Shown: positions 43,042 to 55,594 of the stretch, one piece after another
How positions within the stretch are numbered: the first letter of the stretch is position 1
Layout: each line of letters begins with the position of its first letter
From: Auritidibacter ignavus
Lineage (GTDB): Bacteria; Actinomycetota; Actinomycetes; Actinomycetales; Micrococcaceae
DNA length: 64,000 bases
Assembly: GCF_003703835.1 (NCBI RefSeq)
Contig: NZ_RDQR01000003.1
Location: forward strand, 1 to 64,000
Direction of reading: 5' to 3'
Notes under the pieces: model-generated
What the model saw: the letters and a program-made list of their open reading frames with translations, nothing else
What the model was told of the DNA's origin: nothing
The model's database searches: none
Program-made: the position numbers and the translations under genes

Positions 43042-44403
43042 CTACAACCCCCGAGCTTCACGCCACGCATCCAACCCCACCACATTCCCCTCAGACGGTG
43101 GTGGCGAGGACGGCGCAGGATCAGGTGCCAACAACGAGTCGGCCACCCGGTCCACTGCATCCACCCGCAGCTCATCCAACACGTGCTGATACCGCTTCAA
43201 CATCGACACTTGCGACCACCCCATGATCTCCATGACCACCCTGGGGTCCACGCCTTGGACCAGCAGCATGGTCGCAGCGGTGTGCCGTAAATCTTTCACC
43301 GTCCCCGTTGTCACCCCGGCCTGCTTCAACAGGTCCTTGAACAACGCCCAATCCTGGCGACTATTCGGCGGCCGCCCATTCCGCTGTTTGAACACCAGGT
43401 CGTACTCTTGGCCGTCTGGGGCAGTCCAGGTCGCCCGGTGGCCGTCTTGGACCTCCCACAACCGGTGACGCTCCCACTGAGCCACCAACGCCCGATAGAT
43501 CACCTCTGGCATCGGCAACCCACGAATACTTGTTTCGGTCTTCGGCTCCCCCAAAAACAGCCCACCACCAAACCGTTGTGGGCAGTCCGCGCCACGCCGC
43601 TTCCTGCACGACGGGCCATCCTTGGTTTGGTTGCACCCGTGTTGCCACGACAACCGGAACAACTTCCGGTCCACCCTGATCCGCTTCTGCTCCAAAAACA
43701 CCCGGTCCCAGGCCAACCCCAGCACCTCTGACTGGCGTGGACCCAACAGGGTGCCAATCAGCCACCTGGCCGGATTCTCACTATCCTGGATCACCGCCAG
43801 TAGCCTCTTGGCCTGGGGTACAGTCAACGACTCCCCCGACCTCGACATGTTCTGCGACTTCATCGCCTTCGGTACGGTCGCTAAATCTGCTGGGTTGTGC
43901 CCCAGAACCCCACGCCGGACCGCCTCACCCAGCCCCTTGCGCAGGATGTTGTGAAACTGGCGCACCGTAGAGATCGTGAGTCCAGCATCCCGCATGGACC
44001 GGTACTGACGCTCCAGGTCCTCCGGTTTCAGCTTGGACAACACGATCTTGCCGACCCTGGGCTTGTCCACGTAGGTGCGGACCTTGGACCGGTACCCCTT
44101 CAGCGTCAGCGCTTCCAGATCTTCCGCCAACTCACGTTTCTGCAGATAATGCTCCATCCACGCCGACAAGGTCATGTTCGCGTCCACGGTGGTGACCCGC
44201 CCGGCCTCATAATCCCGCACCAGCCGGGCAATCTCCCGCCGACACGCTGCAGCAGACTCCGCTGTCACGGTTCGCCGGTTCCGGGTGCCGTCGGCCTTGT
44301 ACCCAAGCATGACCGTGGACCTCCACATCCCGGGCCGAACCTCTTTCGGCTCGGACCCCTCCCCATCGAGCCGTTTACGTTTCTTCTGTGCATCCTTGCT
44401 CAT
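43042..44403 (-). CDS. Tyrosine-type site-specific integrase
   Basis: A 453-residue integrase that recombines phage attP with the tRNA attB. The N-terminal part has an arm-binding fold and a SAM-like core-binding domain (about 70-170). The catalytic domain has TLLGPRQSEVLGL (first arginine), DLRHTAATMLLVQ (second arginine with LRHT) and the nucleophile in GWSQVSMLKRYQHV. An insert of about 40 residues with Cys/Trp lies after the first arginine box (DGPSCRKRRGADCPQR). It overlaps the ImmA-like gene by 4 bases and sits next to the att site. Confidence 0.93.
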   Translation of the reverse strand: MSKDAQKKRKRLDGEGSEPKEVRPGMWRSTVMLGYKADGTRNRRTVTAESAAACRREIARLVRDYEAGRVTTVDANMTLSAWMEHYLQKRELAEDLEALTLKGYRSKVRTYVDKPRVGKIVLSKLKPEDLERQYRSMRDAGLTISTVRQFHNILRKGLGEAVRRGVLGHNPADLATVPKAMKSQNMSRSGESLTVPQAKRLLAVIQDSENPARWLIGTLLGPRQSEVLGLAWDRVFLEQKRIRVDRKLFRLSWQHGCNQTKDGPSCRKRRGADCPQRFGGGLFLGEPKTETSIRGLPMPEVIYRALVAQWERHRLWEVQDGHRATWTAPDGQEYDLVFKQRNGRPPNSRQDWALFKDLLKQAGVTTGTVKDLRHTAATMLLVQGVDPRVVMEIMGWSQVSMLKRYQHVLDELRVDAVDRVADSLLAPDPAPSSPPPSEGNVVGLDAWREARGL

Positions 44404-44896: not shown

Positions 44897-44980
44897 GGAT
44901 CACCGAGGCCCTTGACGCGAATAGTCGCCGTATGGTTGGCGTTCCCACAATCGTGGGATAGCACCAAGGGCCGACTTTTT
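44897..44980 (+). ncRNA. Candidate small structured RNA next to DUF3800 gene
   Basis: On the plus strand an 8-bp outer stem pairs GGCCCTTG (44907-44914) with CAAGGGCC (44965-44972). Inside are GCGA/TCGC (44917-44928, or the alternative CGCC/GGCG 44926-44941) and a strong TCCCAC/GTGGGA hairpin (44943-44958, loop AATC). Five T's follow at 44976-44980. A -10-like TATACT at 44890-44895 and a 4-of-6 -35 (GTGACC, 44866-44871, 18-base spacer) precede it. No frame codes for protein. It ends at the stop codon of the convergent DUF3800 gene. Structured RNAs beside DUF3800 genes have been reported from comparative work; membership of a named class is inference. Confidence 0.6.
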
Positions 44981-45614
44981 ATCTCGTGAAATTCCAGTAC
45001 GTGCCCTGCGGCTGATACGTCCGAGGTCGAATCCGCAACAAATGCTTGTCGTCACTGGGTTTATTCGTTCGGATACACCGATTCACCGCACCAGCAGCCA
45101 TATCTGCCAACTGGATCCCAGCGTTGAATTTTGAATCATCGAACTTCACCGCCCGGATCGTTCCAGGACTCTCCCGGTTGACCATTCGCATCAAGTACGC
45201 CTCGTCTTCGATACCGAACCCTTTCGTGTCGTGACCATCAATAACGATCTTTGCGTCGCGGATCTGGTCGTAGTTCTTCGTCAACAACATCCTGATCGCA
45301 TAGCTTTTGAGTGCGGCTGGGCTGCTACGCAACTTATGGCTATAGATCTTGCTCTTGTCAAAGAAGATCACCCGAAGGTGGTAATCAATATGATCCGTGC
45401 AGTTAAAGAAGCAGTCCTTGACGCGTTCTTTGGTCTTCGCATATTTGAACTCAGGCTTGTGCCGATTATGCGCCAAACATTCTTCTATCGCCCGTTTGAG
45501 CGCTTCGATCTGGAATGGGTCACGGAATACAGCAGCAGCCATAACTAGATGGCTTGATGCTCCATGCTCGAACTTGAAACCGCCGTCGCCGGAGTCGTCG
45601 ATAAAAACGTGCAC
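44979..45614 (-). CDS. DUF3800 family protein
   Basis: A 211-residue protein with the DUF3800 pattern: an N-terminal acidic FIDDSGDGG (about 4-12), a second acidic strand IVIDGHDTKG, and NAGIQLADMAAGAVNRCIR near the C-terminus. The spaced aspartates resemble an RNase H-like catalytic fold. The start is GTG at 45614, only 3 bases after the stop of the HTH repressor, so the two are translationally coupled and should be expressed in the lysogen. Function is not established for the family; a nuclease or toxin-like role is an inference. Confidence 0.85.
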   Translation of the reverse strand: MHVFIDDSGDGGFKFEHGASSHLVMAAAVFRDPFQIEALKRAIEECLAHNRHKPEFKYAKTKERVKDCFFNCTDHIDYHLRVIFFDKSKIYSHKLRSSPAALKSYAIRMLLTKNYDQIRDAKIVIDGHDTKGFGIEDEAYLMRMVNRESPGTIRAVKFDDSKFNAGIQLADMAAGAVNRCIRTNKPSDDKHLLRIRPRTYQPQGTYWNFTR

Positions 45615-47575: not shown

Positions 47576-47696
47576 CACTTAGGCAAAACTCTCTCTCATT
47601 ATTTCACGCCGCCTTTTGGCGTACCCAGGTTCTAAGTCCGTGCCACTACTGGGGTGGTTTCTCGGCAAGCAAATGCTGAAAGGAGCGTCTATTGGC

Positions 47697-48149
47697 ATGT
47701 CCAAAAATAGTTCAACTGGGTTCTGGGATGTTTACCGAACCATAAAAAAGACCGCTAAACAAGAGGGTCTGAAGCTGTCGTCCAAGAAGGTTTTCAATAT
47801 CAGCAACTATTACATGCGGTTACTTGAGGATGCCGTTAAAGAGGATGAGGAATTGCAATGCGATTTTGATCCGACGACGTATAAGGATCCGACTGGTGAT
47901 GCGGCCGTCAAGCATTGGTTCCGGTTGATGGCTAGAAGTTTAGTCACCCAGGCAATACGTGCGTCGATCTGTAGCGCGGCAATGGTCACGGATAAAGGCA
48001 TCGTCCGGTGTGACCAGCCCGCCGTCCACGTTCCTGGTTGGGACACGGACAACCCGGTCTGTGAGCACCACATGGAGCAATTAACGAAAAATAACTACCA
48101 CAGAAAAAAGAAGAAGCCCGGTTCGGGAACACCGGGCATTTTGGTTTAA
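47697..48149 (+). CDS. Hypothetical phage protein
   Basis: A 150-residue protein from the ATG at 47697 (AAGGAG about 11 bases upstream; the frame stays open back to a TTG at 47616). Residues near the C-terminus have a Cys/His set (SICSAAMV, VRCDQPAVH, PVCEHHMEQL) that may hold one zinc. The tail is basic (KKKKPG). No family recognised. Its base use is richer in A/T than the host part. Confidence 0.55.
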   Translation: MSKNSSTGFWDVYRTIKKTAKQEGLKLSSKKVFNISNYYMRLLEDAVKEDEELQCDFDPTTYKDPTGDAAVKHWFRLMARSLVTQAIRASICSAAMVTDKGIVRCDQPAVHVPGWDTDNPVCEHHMEQLTKNNYHRKKKKPGSGTPGILV

Positions 48150-48164
48150 GAAAGGAAAACCAAG

Positions 48165-48965
48165 ATGCAACATATTATACCGCATACTAACGAATCACCA
48201 TTTGATGCGATCAAGCAGACCGACGAACACGGTAATGAGTGGTGGTCAGCACGTGACCTGATGGAAGTCATGGGTTACCCCACCTGGCAACACTTCCGTC
48301 CAGTGATTGAACGTGCTATGAGCGCATCAGCGAATCAAGGTCACACCCCCGAAACCCTTTTCAAGGTCAACCGTGAAAAGTCTGGTGGCCGTCCACGTGA
48401 AGACTATTTGATGTCACGGTTCGCTTGCTATCTGGTCGCCATGAACGGCGACCCGCGAAAACCAGAAGTTGCTGGCGCTCAGTCGTATTTCGCGATTCAG
48501 ACTCGTGTTGCTGAGACTCAGATTCCTCAGCAGATTGAGATGTCTGAGGATGAGATCTTGCATCGGGCATTAGAGATCTCTGCTGGCCGGGTGAAGGCTC
48601 TGGAAGCGAAGGTTGAGCAGGACGCCCCGAAAGTTGATTATCACGACACGTTTGTTGCTGATGAGGACCTGCTGTCTTTCCGCACTGTGGCGAGTGATTT
48701 GAAGATCGGTGAGCAGCAATTACGGCAGATGTTGATGGGTGCTGGATGGATTTATGCTCAGCACACTTCACGTTGGTCGCAGTCGAAGCAGAAAAAGATC
48801 CCGATTACCCGGTATAGCGCGTATGCGGAGAAGAAGAACTGCTTCCAAGCCGTGCTGCATCATGATGTGCCGCGTTTCCGTGGCGAGGTGATGCACACGT
48901 TGAAGATCACTCCGGCTGGCGCGTCTGCTATTGCACGTCTTGTGGAGAGAAAGAAGGCAGCATGA
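48165..48965 (+). CDS. Phage antirepressor with BRO-like and KilA-C domains
   Basis: A 266-residue protein. The N-terminal domain (about 1-110) with WWSARDLMEVMGYPTWQHFRPVIERAM and YFAIQTRV resembles P1-type/DinD-BRO antirepressor domains. The C-terminal domain with LLSFRTVASDLKIGEQQLRQMLMGAGWIY and GEVMHTLKITPAG is the KilA-C/ANT domain (pfam phage antirepressor KilAC). Such proteins block the prophage repressor during induction. Its stop overlaps the next ATG. Confidence 0.85.
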   Translation: MQHIIPHTNESPFDAIKQTDEHGNEWWSARDLMEVMGYPTWQHFRPVIERAMSASANQGHTPETLFKVNREKSGGRPREDYLMSRFACYLVAMNGDPRKPEVAGAQSYFAIQTRVAETQIPQQIEMSEDEILHRALEISAGRVKALEAKVEQDAPKVDYHDTFVADEDLLSFRTVASDLKIGEQQLRQMLMGAGWIYAQHTSRWSQSKQKKIPITRYSAYAEKKNCFQAVLHHDVPRFRGEVMHTLKITPAGASAIARLVERKKAA

Positions 48966-49111: not shown

Positions 49112-49273
49112 ATGGAACTGTTCTTTTACATCATCCTCTCCATTCTTACTATCTCAGTGTTGTGGAGTGCGACTGAACTCCACTTGTTACGGCGCCGGAT
49201 AGACACAACCGTTGACCGGGCAAGACGGCGCCAACAACGCTCACCCAAACTATTCGACCAGGAAACACAATGA
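49112..49273 (+). CDS. Small phage membrane protein
   Basis: A 53-residue protein starting at ATG 49112 directly after the previous stop. A single membrane helix (FFYIILSILTISVLW) is followed by a basic tail (RRRIDTTVDRARRRQQR). The stop overlaps the nuclease gene start (ATGA). Function unknown. Confidence 0.55.
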   Translation: MELFFYIILSILTISVLWSATELHLLRRRIDTTVDRARRRQQRSPKLFDQETQ

Positions 49274-50202
49274 GCCAATGGACAGAATCCTCGACCCCAG
49301 CATTCGTAACCGCAACCAACAAGTCGAAGCAGACGACGATCCCAGAAACGAGCACGGATATGACCGAGATAATTCATAACTTGCCGGCAGAAGAATACTT
49401 CGCTAACCCAGCATTCGGCAGCACCTCAATACGATATTTATCTGACCCAGAAATCAGCCTCCAAGAAGTCAAACATCTACTCGAACAGGATGAGCACAAG
49501 AAAGAGTATGACGTCGGCACGTTGGCTCACGCACTCATTTTGGAAGGCTCAATGGATCACCTCATCGTCGAGGTCGATGCCGACGACTACCGGACAAAAG
49601 CGGCACGAGAAGCACGCAACGCAGCCTACGCCGCAAATAAGATCCCAGTGAACAATTCGGAATGGGCCACGATCATAGATCCTATTGTCCAGATGCAGCA
49701 AGCCGTCATGGGACACGACATCGCTAAAGACTTGCTGACAGGGCACTCGCCAGAGGTGAGCTTGTTTTGGGAACAAGAAGGTATGCCAATGAAAGCCCGC
49801 ATCGACGCGCTCCATGAGGGTCGGAAACTCGCAGTGGATTTGAAAACGGTTCGCTCAGCAAGACCAAATGACTTCAAACGACAAATCTCCGACCTCGCCT
49901 ACTACATTCAAGCATCCCACTACCTCAACGGATTAGAGACTGTCACCGGAGACAAGTACGACTGGTTATTCGTGGCAGTCAGCAAGTCTGAACCATGTGT
50001 TGTGTCAGTTCATCGGTTGAGCCCAGATGCACTCACTGAAGGAGCTATCCGTATTGGTCATGCCATCGACCGCTACAAGGCCGCACAAGAGCGCGGGTGG
50101 ACTGGTTATGAGGAAATATTCACCCAAGAACTCACGCCCTGGGAGTCCATGAAAAATGAGTCCCTGCTGGATGACGAAATCTTTGTAGGAGGTGCAGCAT
50201 GA
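49270..50202 (+). CDS. PD-(D/E)XK nuclease-like recombination exonuclease
   Basis: A 310-residue protein with the pattern of phage RecE/YqaJ-type nucleases: an N-terminal YDVGTLAHALILE helix, MPMKARIDALHEGRKLAVDLKTVRSA with the catalytic D-x-K core (IDAL...DLKT), and DLAYYIQASHYLNGL. These degrade one strand from double-strand ends for annealing recombination. The gene after it overlaps by 4 bases and SSB follows, so it opens a recombination cassette. Confidence 0.8.
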   Translation: MSQWTESSTPAFVTATNKSKQTTIPETSTDMTEIIHNLPAEEYFANPAFGSTSIRYLSDPEISLQEVKHLLEQDEHKKEYDVGTLAHALILEGSMDHLIVEVDADDYRTKAAREARNAAYAANKIPVNNSEWATIIDPIVQMQQAVMGHDIAKDLLTGHSPEVSLFWEQEGMPMKARIDALHEGRKLAVDLKTVRSARPNDFKRQISDLAYYIQASHYLNGLETVTGDKYDWLFVAVSKSEPCVVSVHRLSPDALTEGAIRIGHAIDRYKAAQERGWTGYEEIFTQELTPWESMKNESLLDDEIFVGGAA

Positions 50203-50774
50203 ATTTGGATATGAGTGGCACGATAGTTGCCAAATCTGACCAAATCAATGCTTCCGACATTACTCAGCCGACGATCATCACTATCACCGATGTTAAGGTG
50301 AAAAAGGGTGACGATCAGCCGGTTTGGATCACCGTGGCTGAATACCCTAAACGCTATTTCAAACCAGGGCTGACTGTTCGCCGGATTCTTGCCCACCTGT
50401 GGGGAAACGACGGGGCGGCATATATTGGCCGGCAAATCGAAATCTACAACGATTCAACCGTGAAATGGGGAGGCCAAGAAGTCGGTGGCATTCGTGTCTC
50501 GCGCATGAGTCACATAGATAAGCCCGAAGTATTGGCTCTGCCTGAGGGGCGCGGCAAGTGGAAAGACTTCTATGTTGAACCACTCCCCCAACAACCGCAG
50601 CAACAGCCTCAGCAGTCCCCACAGGCTGCCCCTGATTGGGATGAGGCGATCTCTGACTGCCAGGGCAACACTGACGATCTGCGGGCCTTATGGACGCAAG
50701 CACAAGAAACCGGCGCCCCACAAGAAGTCCTCAACAAGATTCAAGCAGTAGCACAACAAGGAGACCAACAGTAA
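50199..50774 (+). CDS. Unknown protein in the recombination cassette
   Basis: A 191-residue protein between a RecE-like nuclease and SSB, with 4-base and 1-base overlaps on the two sides. The N-terminal 115 residues look like one beta-rich fold (TIITITDVKVKKGDDQPVWITV, AAYIGRQIEIYND), then a Gln/Pro-rich linker (PQQPQQQPQQSPQ) and a helical tail. The position is that of a single-strand annealing protein (RecT, Erf, Beta), but I see no signature of those. The role is therefore unknown. Confidence 0.65.
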   Translation: MNLDMSGTIVAKSDQINASDITQPTIITITDVKVKKGDDQPVWITVAEYPKRYFKPGLTVRRILAHLWGNDGAAYIGRQIEIYNDSTVKWGGQEVGGIRVSRMSHIDKPEVLALPEGRGKWKDFYVEPLPQQPQQQPQQSPQAAPDWDEAISDCQGNTDDLRALWTQAQETGAPQEVLNKIQAVAQQGDQQ

Positions 50775-51199
50775 TGGCGAACGTCAGTTTTCGAGGCAAT
50801 GTCGGCAAGGTGTTCGGCCTCAAGCGTTCCCAAGACGGCAAACCGCGCTTCCAGTTCAGCGTTGCGGAAAGTCATGGCCGGTTCGACCAGCACAATCAAT
50901 GGCAAGACACTGGAACGACATGGTGGAACGTGACCGTATTCGGGAAACAGTCCGAGAACCTGGCAGACATTATCCAGGAAGGCCAGAAGCAACAAGTCGT
51001 GGTTACTGGGCGCTCGCAAACTCGACGGTACGAGCACAACGGTGAGCAGCGCGAATCATTAGACGTTGCGGCTGATCATGTTGGGTTAGTCCACCGGGCT
51101 AACCAGCCTCAGTCGTCCCCTGCTGCTAACTGGAACAACGCGCCAGAAAACGCATGGGCAGGTGGCGGACAACAGCAAGGTGGCAACCCTCCTTTCTGA
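50774..51199 (+). CDS. ssb: Single-strand DNA-binding protein
   Basis: A 141-residue protein from the ATG at 50774, which overlaps the upstream TAA. The OB fold is at about 1-110 (SFRGNVGKVFGL, WWNVTVFGKQSENLADI, VVVTGRSQTRRYEHNGEQRESLDV). The tail is Gln/Asn/Gly-rich but ends GGNPPF, echoing the usual SSB tip although without the DDDIPF acidic residues. It belongs to the phage recombination/replication set. Confidence 0.88.
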   Translation: MANVSFRGNVGKVFGLKRSQDGKPRFQFSVAESHGRFDQHNQWQDTGTTWWNVTVFGKQSENLADIIQEGQKQQVVVTGRSQTRRYEHNGEQRESLDVAADHVGLVHRANQPQSSPAANWNNAPENAWAGGGQQQGGNPPF

Positions 51200-51838: not shown

Positions 51839-52267
51839 ATGCAGTTACCAATTAAAAAGTTAAACCCGGACGCGAAACTTCCAACACGTGGCTCAGCCGA
51901 TTCAGCTGGGCTTGATTTATATGCGCTAGGGTCCACCAGGATCGCGTCAGGAGCACGCGTAGCTGTCCCAACAGGTATTGCAGCATCAATACCTCACGGG
52001 CACGTTGGGATGCTGTTTATCCGGTCAGGACACGCACTAAAACACGGGTTGTCCCTCGCTAACGGAACCGGCGTTGTGGACGCAGACTACCGTGGCGAAA
52101 TTATGGCAGTCGTCCATAACACTGGCATGCAACCGTACACCATCCACGACGGTGAACGATTCTGCCAACTCGTAATCCAAGAATACGTTCACGCCCTTGT
52201 GGTCGAAACCTACTCGATGAGTGGCACAGACAGAGGGGGTGCCGGTTTTGGGTCAACAGGTCAATGA
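51839..52267 (+). CDS. dut: dUTP diphosphatase
   Basis: A 142-residue trimeric dUTPase that keeps uracil out of phage DNA and makes dUMP. Motifs in order: DSAGLDLY (motif 1, about 22-29), FIRSGHALKHGLSLANGTGVVDADYRGEI (motifs 2 and 3, with a histidine in place of the usual SS of RSS), GERFCQLVIQ (motif 4) and RGGAGFGSTG (motif 5, at the C-terminus). GAGGAGAG lies before the start. Confidence 0.93.
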   Translation: MQLPIKKLNPDAKLPTRGSADSAGLDLYALGSTRIASGARVAVPTGIAASIPHGHVGMLFIRSGHALKHGLSLANGTGVVDADYRGEIMAVVHNTGMQPYTIHDGERFCQLVIQEYVHALVVETYSMSGTDRGGAGFGSTGQ

Positions 52268-53626: not shown

Positions 53627-54365
53627 GATGCGCGGGATCAAGCCGGAGACTTTCACTGACGACAAGATCCTGCAAATCTCACCATTAGCACGCTGGCTAT
53701 TCATCGGCATGTGGACTCAAGCGTGCGATAACGGGCACGTCGAAGATAACCCGGTGCAACTCAAAGTCCGGTTACTTCCAATGGATAACTGCGACGTGAA
53801 AGAGCTTGTTGATGAGCTAGTCAATATCGGGCTGGTGAAGCGGATTGAAGGACACTTGTCGATCCCGAACCTTCCTCATCATCAGAAGATCGACCGCAGA
53901 TTCTTAGTTTTCTGTGAAGCGTGTGAGTTCGACCCTGATGTGAAGTTCTACCCAAAAGACAAGCTGGCACGCTCACCGAGCAAACGACGTGCAAGCAAGG
54001 CGGAAGACGAAGGTAAAGACACCCGCTCGTCGGGCGCTCGTCGTGCACTCGTCGATGAAGGTGAAGGTGAAGGTGAAGGTGAAGGTGAGAGAGGCGCGCA
54101 GTCCAAGCCTTCCCGCAAAACCCGCATCCCAGACGACTGGGAACCTACCGACTCTCACAAGAAGCGTGGGGCAGAGAAGAACCTGAACCTCGCAGAAGAA
54201 GCTGAGAAGTTCAAGAACTGGGCAATAGCCAATGACCGTAAATACGTGGACTGGAACCGGGCGTTTAGTAACTGGCTGATCAACGCACGACCTCAACCCT
54301 CAAGATCTTCAGGGGATGACTCATGGCACAAACTGATGAACTGGAACAAGCAGAACTCGGCCTGA
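53619..54365 (+). CDS. Phage replication initiator-like protein
   Basis: A 248-residue protein. The N-terminal part (about 1-110) reads as a winged-helix (FTDDKILQISPLARWLFIGMWTQACDNGHVEDNPVQLKVRLLPMDNCDVKELVDELVNIGLVKRIEGHLSIPN), as in replication initiators of actinophages. The linker carries a GE dipeptide run coded by about five GAAGGT hexamers (54056-54088). The C-terminal part (KKRGAEKNLNLAEEAEKFKNWAIANDRKYVDWNRAFSNWL) is a domain seen beside DnaB helicases. It overlaps the helicase gene by 43 bases. Confidence 0.75.
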   Translation: MAKMRGIKPETFTDDKILQISPLARWLFIGMWTQACDNGHVEDNPVQLKVRLLPMDNCDVKELVDELVNIGLVKRIEGHLSIPNLPHHQKIDRRFLVFCEACEFDPDVKFYPKDKLARSPSKRRASKAEDEGKDTRSSGARRALVDEGEGEGEGEGERGAQSKPSRKTRIPDDWEPTDSHKKRGAEKNLNLAEEAEKFKNWAIANDRKYVDWNRAFSNWLINARPQPSRSSGDDSWHKLMNWNKQNSA

Positions 54366-55594
54366 TCGGGGCAACACTCAACAGTGCTGGACGAGCGTTC
54401 ACCGAACTGGACTTTGACCCGACAGACTTCCGTCACCCCGTCATGGAACAAGTCTGGCGGGTCATGCAGAAAATGGTCCAAGACGGGAAACCAGTAGACC
54501 AGGTGACACTCATACACGCTCTAGCGAACAGTGACATGCCGGTAGAGCCATCGCTGATCCACAAGGCTGTAGAGGTCGCACCATCCCCTGCTTCAGCGAA
54601 CTACTACGCGGGCATCGTCGCTGAGCACGCGGCCCGTAGGAGGCTAGCAACCGTGGGCCGGTCGATCATCGACCTAGCAGGCCAGCCCGGTAGCGTGGAC
54701 GCGCTCATCGATGAGGCGAGAAAAAAACTCGACAACACGACCCGCGTGAACATCACTAGCCCGGTTCAGTACGTGTGGGAAACGATGGGCGACACGGTAG
54801 CAACGTTCACGGAGGGTGACACGTTCATTGAGACCCCGTGGCCGTCCTTGAACCGGATCATCGGCGGGCTAAGGCCAGGAGCGGTATACACGGTCGGCTC
54901 AAGGCCAGGTGTCGGCAAATCCGTGTTGGGTATCGAACTAGGGTTAGTGATGGCACAACACGGCGGTGTTGCGCTGTTCAGTCTTGAGATGTCCCAGGAT
55001 GACGTAAACAAGCGGATTCTGGCTAATCAGAAGCAGATACCGATGAACCGGCTCATGTCGCCGTCTGAGCTCACGGACGTCGATTATCGGAAGATCGCGG
55101 AATGGCGTAACGAGTTCAGGCGGCCTTTCGCGGTGAATAAGTCGCCGCAGGTCACCATCGGGGAGATACGCCGGTTTGCCAGGAATGTGGATCGTCGTGA
55201 CCCTCTGGCCGGTGTCGTGGTGGACTATCTGCAACTGATGGGGCAAGCGCCGAACGACAAGCGGGCCAGGCAGGAGTTTGTTTCCGACATGTCCCGGAAC
55301 CTGAAATTGCTAGCTATGGAACTCGATGTGCCCGTGGTCATGCTCAGCCAGCTCAACCGTGAACTTGAAGGTAGAAATAACGGCATGCCGAAACTCTCCG
55401 ATTTGCGCGAGTCGGGGTCGATCGAACAAGACAGCGACGTGGTACTGCTCCTCCACCGCGACATCGTAGACGAGGGGAAAGCTCACGAACTCCAAATGAT
55501 CGTCGCCAAAAACCGCCACGGCGCACCAGGAGGACTCACACTCGACTTCGCAGGCCACTACAGCAAACTCAGAGAACCACATGGAGGATTCTAA
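54323..55594 (+). CDS. DnaB-like replicative helicase
   Basis: A 423-residue helicase. An N-terminal DnaB helical domain (about 1-110) and a RecA-like domain with Walker A SRPGVGKS, ALFSLEMSQDDVNKRILA, Walker B GVVVDYLQLM, and MLSQLNRELEGRNNGMPKLSDLRESGSIEQDSD, the DnaB-4 signature. It unwinds phage DNA. The start overlaps the initiator gene. Slightly shorter than cellular DnaB (about 450). Confidence 0.92.
   Translation: MAQTDELEQAELGLIGATLNSAGRAFTELDFDPTDFRHPVMEQVWRVMQKMVQDGKPVDQVTLIHALANSDMPVEPSLIHKAVEVAPSPASANYYAGIVAEHAARRRLATVGRSIIDLAGQPGSVDALIDEARKKLDNTTRVNITSPVQYVWETMGDTVATFTEGDTFIETPWPSLNRIIGGLRPGAVYTVGSRPGVGKSVLGIELGLVMAQHGGVALFSLEMSQDDVNKRILANQKQIPMNRLMSPSELTDVDYRKIAEWRNEFRRPFAVNKSPQVTIGEIRRFARNVDRRDPLAGVVVDYLQLMGQAPNDKRARQEFVSDMSRNLKLLAMELDVPVVMLSQLNRELEGRNNGMPKLSDLRESGSIEQDSDVVLLLHRDIVDEGKAHELQMIVAKNRHGAPGGLTLDFAGHYSKLREPHGGF

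Follow-up and report, generated by a model that had tools for sequence, protein, structure and literature searches.

The exonuclease-X-ssb cassette and its prophage

The stretch of DNA that we analyzed, referred to here as the window, comprises 64,000 nt of Auritidibacter ignavus (contig NZ_RDQR01000003.1, positions 1 to 64,000 of the forward strand). Between an exonuclease gene and ssb it carries an ORF (50199-50774, plus strand, start codon ATG) for a protein of 191 aa, which we call X. The cassette lies in the early region of a prophage, with the following genes:

43042-44403, minus strand: integrase
48165-48965: antirepressor
49270-50202, plus strand: RecE/exonuclease VIII-type exonuclease, 310 aa (PHROG 412, E 4.3e-62; Pfam DUF3799, E 1.3e-24)
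50199-50774, plus strand: X, a PHROG 11517 protein and putative annealing partner of the exonuclease (conserved family, exonuclease linkage)
50774-51199, plus strand: ssb, single-strand DNA-binding protein, 141 aa (Pfam SSB, PF00436, E 1.5e-17; PHROG 44, E 5.3e-23)
51839-52267: dUTPase
54323-55594: DnaB-type helicase

The exonuclease ORF ends inside the start codon of X, in the motif ATGA, and the TAA stop codon of X (50772-50774) has one base in common with the ATG of ssb (50774-50776). Thus, the overlaps with a RecE-like nuclease and with ssb that were described in the initial annotation are borne out by the coordinates, at 4 nt and 1 nt, respectively. The 2.59-Mb genome contains a single copy of X (E ≤ 0.01).

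Other features of this prophage and genome were also noted. A DUF3800 gene (44979-45614, minus strand) adjoins the prophage's integrase and lysogeny genes, and just 5' of the antirepressor gene there is an ORF of 177 aa (47616-48149, plus strand) with no Pfam family over the cut-off and a single PHROG match, at chance level. In IMG/VR, the prophage is recorded as UViG_2831686037, which begins near window position 44400 and, with a length of 34428 bp, extends beyond the end of the window; G+C content is 52-54% at 46-54 kb, compared to 56-62% before 44 kb of the window. A second exonuclease gene, of the YqaJ type, lies on another contig of the same genome (L187; G000:C51:50585-50989), and we did not find X in the 3.4-kb stretch around it.

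A widespread phage family linked to an exonuclease

X matched PHROG 11517, a family of unknown function, with an E-value of 1.4e-50 (residues 3-150 on positions 2-148 of 188), and gave a weak match to PHROG 21613 (E 1.5e-5). It matched no Pfam or NCBIfam family above the cut-off and no Pfam model at E ≤ 0.2, the models for RecT, Erf, Rad52 and Sak included. A lone NCBIfam match to a luciferase-like family, below the cut-off, was judged to be due to chance and rejected as an identity for X; the matches to Kelch proteins, an Aca protein and others, found when the X sequence or the A2 profile was compared with the sequences of solved structures, were likewise chance matches.

Of 50,697 phage records, 184 contained relatives of X (164 from phages of Vibrio, Arthrobacter or Gordonia, with two Synechococcus phages in the remainder), as did at least 576 stretches in IMG/VR and 90 stretches of genome contigs; these numbers argue against a chance family. 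Both Actinomycetes and Alphaproteobacteria are represented, as are phages infecting Vibrio, other Gammaproteobacteria and Synechococcus. Alphaproteobacteria account for 42 of the 80 genome loci that we retained, Actinomycetes for 33 and Gammaproteobacteria for one, with four placed otherwise or poorly; two of the loci examined (L126 and L127) are from Rhodococcus, judging by their record titles. Wherever X is annotated in the phage records among the matches listed, it is called a "hypothetical" or "conserved hypothetical protein."

We examined the surroundings of X in 172 loci besides the window's own (79 from IMG/VR, 13 phage records and 80 genome contigs), which form 154 clusters at 90% identity, with a few loci repeating one phage. 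Since the loci were chosen by similarity to X (the best 80 of at least 576 IMG/VR stretches and the best 80 of 90 genome stretches), the sample is uneven and distant members are under-sampled. An exonuclease gene lay upstream, on the same strand and within 1.2 kb, in 170 of these 172 loci, and the two exceptions sit at record ends, where only 285 and 112 nt precede X. The upstream nuclease was of the YqaJ type in 126 loci and of the RecE type in 38, and in the other six a YqaJ gene was followed by one for a DnaQ-like exonuclease. The nuclease profiles used for these assignments were built from the neighbors of X themselves, with representatives verified by Pfam (YqaJ in L019 and L109; RNase_T in L072). 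A profile seeded on the window's own exonuclease detected a nuclease in the 1 kb upstream of X in just 32 of 159 loci, because the YqaJ type prevails among the relatives of X. The cassettes in which a DnaQ-like (RNase_T) gene stands between YqaJ and X are those of L072, L096, L137, L140, L143 and L165.

The two genes are generally close together: the distance was 60 nt or less in 132 of the 170 loci and larger, up to 1116 nt, in 34, while in the other four it was negative and unreliable, the start of X having been placed too far upstream. With starts assigned by a motif rule, the exonuclease ORF overlapped that of X by 4 or 1 nt in 82 of the 170. In one further locus (L074), left outside the count by the start-motif filter, the YqaJ ORF ends where X starts. 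The locus contained an SSB-like ORF, at any position, in 38 of the 172 cases, and one immediately downstream of X in seven of 159, the window's own locus included, both counts being made with a narrow SSB profile. The constant neighbor of X is the exonuclease, not ssb.

This linkage does not extend to all YqaJ nucleases. In a survey of Actinomycetes, YqaJ was found (E ≤ 1e-6) in 36 of 394 genomes, and in 30 of the loci (up to 3.4 kb each) the YqaJ profile derived from X loci matched the nuclease in 10 and X was present in four. These four were the ones with YqaJ scores above 300 bits; no X was found within the stretches around six YqaJ genes scoring 17-56 bits or around the 20 with no profile match. 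Thus, X is tied to one branch of YqaJ.

Across the family, X has also changed partners. In a quick maximum-likelihood phylogeny of X domains from 170 labeled loci, including that of the window (computed without branch support, with DnaQ loci counted as YqaJ), the distribution of YqaJ and RecE labels required at least 22 changes, compared to 30-39 (mean 36) in 50 shuffles of the labels. Thus, nuclease type partly follows the descent of X, yet it has been exchanged many times. Such exchange is seen in close relatives: X domains that are 95% identical stand beside a RecE-type nuclease in L068 and a YqaJ nuclease in L039, and those of L130 and L108, with different nuclease types, are 84% identical.

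The annealase slot and the predicted structure of X

We approached the same cassette from the nuclease side, using nine loci among the 60 matches listed from 469 records related to the window's exonuclease. X followed the nuclease directly in two of the nine (L177 and L183) and was absent from the other seven (6.4-6.9 kb read). In those seven, the slot behind the nuclease was filled by RecT in L178 and L181 (PHROG 4171) and in L182 (Pfam); by ERF in L184, in the order exonuclease VIII, ERF, SSB; and, in L179, L180 and L185, by proteins of PHROG 3657 with weak RecT-like matches in their C-terminal parts. These last three, encoded behind RecE-type exonucleases (L179:3818-4930, L180:3801-5093 and L185:3945-5156), belong to a PHROG listed as being of "unknown function"; two are annotated as RecT or RecT-like and that of L180 as hypothetical. 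Their matches to the RecT family PHROG 4171 are weak and C-terminal, and Pfam gave nothing for L180; judging from these similarities, they are probably divergent RecT proteins. Thus, a single nuclease family is followed either by X or by a known or likely annealase.

If X occupies the place of an annealase, one expects the two to be exclusive, and this is what we found in the records tested. In 61 X-bearing records, comprising 13 phage genomes and, from the 80 IMG/VR loci, all 48 that lie on contigs of at least 30 kb (the window's viral contig included), there was no match to RecT, ERF, Rad52 or SSAP_Sak, and AAA_24 (Sak4 type) gave three fragments below the cut-off and nothing above it; some of these contigs may be fragments, and the search was confined to these five families. 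Control genomes were positive for each of the five (5, 1, 2, 1 and 14 of 14).

X itself showed no match at E ≤ 1 to the models for RecT/Redbeta (PF03837), Erf (PF04404), the Rad52 SSAP superfamily (PF04098 and PF06378) or bacterial SSB (PF00436). Comparison of X by hhalign with five RecT or RecT-like slot proteins gave a probability of 0.9%, and with an alignment of 41 SSB rows, 0.2%. The statement in the initial annotation that X lacks RecT, Erf and Beta signatures therefore holds for both the profile searches and the comparison with RecT-type proteins.

We modeled X with AlphaFold2, using 68 sequences, and obtained a pLDDT of 91.8 and a pTM of 0.69 for the full protein, and of 92.3 and 0.82 for residues 1-131. 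The model confirmed the beta-rich fold and the Gln/Pro linker that had been read from the sequence, and delimits three parts:

50199-50591, plus strand: residues 1-131, conserved basic OB-like beta domain (model and alignment A4)
50592-50636, plus strand: residues 132-146, Gln/Pro-rich linker (sequence; mean pLDDT 68 for residues 131-140)
50637-50768, plus strand: residues 147-190, three-helix C-terminal part (model; net charge)

The modeled strands (25-34, 42-46, 49-54, 79-85 and 97-103), with a helix at 58-68 and a hairpin at 110-117/120-128, run in the order strand-strand-strand-helix-strand-strand, which we take to be that of an OB fold. Foldseek found no match in the PDB at E ≤ 0.001. The best structural neighbor of the N-terminal domain was a ribosomal protein (Z 4.7, rmsd 2.4 over 55 residues), and the PRD1 SSB P12 aligned over 92 residues (Z 3.8, rmsd 4.5). 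What we take to be OB folds are abundant among the structural neighbors listed (RPA70N, HIN domains, eIF5A, a ligase and PRD1 SSB P12), and the model thus suggests a weak resemblance to the OB fold. The nuclease inhibitor or structural protein that the initial annotation had named as contrary outcomes of a fold search did not appear among the matches listed, where the resemblance was weak and of the OB type. No entry with a Rad52-type fold appeared among them either, OB-type domains being found instead, although absence from such a list is no test. For comparison, the accessible part of one account of the Rad52 SSAP superfamily describes a three-stranded antiparallel sheet with alpha3 packed across the sheet and alpha2 (PMC9870868). 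Eight matches to viral structures (BFVD) at E ≤ 0.001 had no informative name, and those beyond the close relatives of X, from Synechococcus phage S-CAM8 and others, are uncharacterized; a profile search of the S-CAM8 genome found nothing.

Ten positions were invariant in 68 diverse members of the family (S13, D14, Q15, D20, Q40, P41, W68, G77, G96 and G97), and basic or aromatic residues were conserved at K12, R52, F54, K55, R62, W68, R78, Y83, W90, R99 and R118 (window numbering). The mean net charge across the family is +4.3 for the N-terminal domain and -5.9 for the C-terminal part. The window's X departs from its family at position 58, with Leu where 94% of members have Lys, and at position 121, with Trp where 87% have Arg or Lys. 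A profile of the C-terminal part, run against the ORFs of the fetched loci, matched 115 X members and no other protein. The basic and aromatic residues and the split of charge fit a protein that, on the model, may bind ssDNA and dock on other proteins.

Candidate roles and relation to known systems

X is a real and conserved protein that probably functions in recombination. We further favor, with moderate confidence, the proposal that the phage exonuclease has in X its partner for single-strand annealing (ssDNA pairing), with a sequence unrelated to those of RecT or Erf, since both its linkage to the exonuclease and its place in the annealase slot point to a further kind of annealing partner. 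This reading is supported by the linkage, the exclusivity, the occupancy of the slot, the swapping of nucleases, and the OB-like fold with its conserved basic and aromatic residues; it is weakened by the lack of detectable homology to a known annealase, the weakness of the OB resemblance, and the non-basic Leu58 and Trp121. Thus, the part of the initial annotation that placed X in the annealase position of a recombination cassette stands, on the slot, on an exonuclease in 170 of 170 judgeable relatives and on exclusivity with RecT and Erf in the records tested, and the annealing itself is a candidate activity.

In the mechanism that we envisage, the exonuclease would resect double-stranded ends, and X, probably touching the exonuclease, would use its basic, OB-like N-terminal domain to coat the single strand thus exposed. 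X would then pair the covered strand with its complement, an activity suggested by the slot, the exclusivity and the fold, with the acidic helical C-terminal part docking on the exonuclease, SSB or both, and with SSB either assisting or being displaced during pairing. X would in this way take over the job of RecT, Redbeta or Erf.

The cassette resembles those of RecET, lambda Exo-Redbeta and Exo-Erf-SSB, in which the exonuclease gene likewise overlaps or abuts the next gene and ssb may follow, but no sequence relation of X to RecT or Erf was detected, and its predicted structure is an OB-like domain with a small helical tail. Gp2.5 of T7 is a small OB-type annealing SSB with an acidic C-terminal part, and X is also small and OB-like with an acidic C-terminal part; unlike Gp2.5, X accompanies YqaJ and RecE nucleases, and in the window it adjoins an ssb gene that starts at the last base of its stop codon. 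No match named Gp2.5 was found for X in the PHROG and Pfam searches, libraries that may hold no such model. The accessible text of a survey of SSAPs in Firmicutes and their phages describes seven families (RecA, Gp2.5, RecT/Redbeta, Erf, Rad52/22, Sak3 and Sak4) and gives the neighborhood of Gp2.5 as duf2800-gp2.5-polA, without ssb (PMC8093625).

The initial annotation had also called X a possible new annealing or loading partner, and here the idea proved to be partly in print. As far as its accessible text goes, a 2022 study of Vibrio phages lists three clusters (mmseq 297, 149 and 600) as putative SSAPs whose family is unknown, called from gene neighborhood, largely by position, with exonuclease neighbors for 297 and 600; mmseq 297 comprises 21 phages and is always adjacent to an exonuclease (PMC8766483). 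Clusters 297 and 600 thus resemble X in their position, and members of the wider superfamily beside exonucleases had already been proposed as SSAPs in Vibrio phages. Fifteen records with MG592 accessions (the Nahant Vibrio phage collection) carry X, among the matches listed, and in three of them (1.036.O, 1.284.A and 1.144.O) the neighbor is a "putative exodeoxyribonuclease 8," so that mmseq 297 is probably the Vibrio branch of X (PHROG 11517). The representative of mmseq 600, AUR82881.1, adjoins a YqaJ gene and belongs to PHROG 21613 (E 2e-17); in Vibrio phage 1.029.O its gene (L218:5937-6443) lies upstream of YqaJ, in the reverse order to that of X. Three X proteins weakly matched the PHROG 21613 profile, at 1.5e-5 to 6.5e-5, and from this profile similarity we take PHROG 21613 to be a distant sister of the X family. 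This link depends on the PHROG profile, since direct comparison of X with AUR82881.1 was weak (hhalign probability 0.7%; hmmsearch 7.7-8.3 bits). We found no publication naming the PHROG 11517 family, judging mostly by titles and the openings of abstracts, nor a description of its breadth, linkage, exclusivity, nuclease swapping or fold in the literature within reach, which excluded most subscription papers.

The main rival to annealing is that X is a mediator of the RecO kind, which would bind the resected strand, displace SSB and load the host RecA, leaving the pairing to the host. RecO consists of an OB domain and a helical domain and acts as both mediator and annealer, and X has a similar layout, with an OB-like domain and a helical part; X differs in having no Pfam match, in being phage-borne and in being tied to an exonuclease. 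A loader would also fit the ssb gene adjoining X in the window, and the lack of five phage annealase families in the 61 X records. Moreover, in Synechococcus phage Yong-M4-211, a gene annotated as "recombination enhancement function protein" (Ref) lies directly behind X (L006:7627-8121), and Ref is RecA-dependent, which fits the same reading. However, a comparison with the ORFs of the other loci found no relative of the Ref-annotated protein (E ≤ 1e-4), and at the other fetched loci whose nuclease is of the window's family, annealases or RecT-like proteins fill the slot. We consider a loader unlikely; since RecO itself anneals, the loader and annealase readings overlap.

We regard as improbable a role for X as an accessory subunit of the exonuclease (a clamp, a processivity factor or an end-recognition factor) or as a second SSB-like protector that does not pair strands. 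RecT and Erf are often present without an exonuclease, whereas X was not seen alone in the loci examined, and its linkage without exception wherever it could be judged, with overlaps of 4 or 1 nt in nearly half of the loci, would fit an accessory subunit too. Such a subunit would, however, have to serve the two nuclease families that X accompanies and between which it has been swapped; a protector would duplicate the SSB already present in 38 of the 172 loci, and an accessory role would leave the X phages without a recognized pairing protein.

Two further explanations appear very improbable. A regulator or inhibitor of a phage or host nuclease, like Gam or Abc, would suit the position next to a nuclease, but no inhibitor-type fold or family appeared among the matches listed, which is weak evidence, and the conserved basic and aromatic residues better suit nucleic-acid binding. 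An unrelated early-phage function, co-transcribed by accident, might be entertained since ~87% of PHROGs are without known function, but it is hard to reconcile with an exonuclease at every judgeable locus, across 154 clusters and more than one bacterial phylum.

If X is an annealing partner, it might be placed among the known classes as follows. We suggest, tentatively and as a possibility that falls somewhat short of probable, that X is the founder of a large class of phage annealases that has yet to be named, formed by PHROG 11517 and, as a distant sister, 21613. Its members would be OB-like and independent of the Rad52-type, RecA-type and Gp2.5 proteins, and RecT or Erf could take their place next to the same exonucleases, and vice versa. 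Many actinobacterial, alphaproteobacterial and vibrio phages and prophages carry an exonuclease and X, with no recognizable annealase in the records tested. If X is their annealase, this would explain how these phages recombine and would add a protein family for recombineering, and the problem of annealing beside an exonuclease would have been solved with yet another protein.
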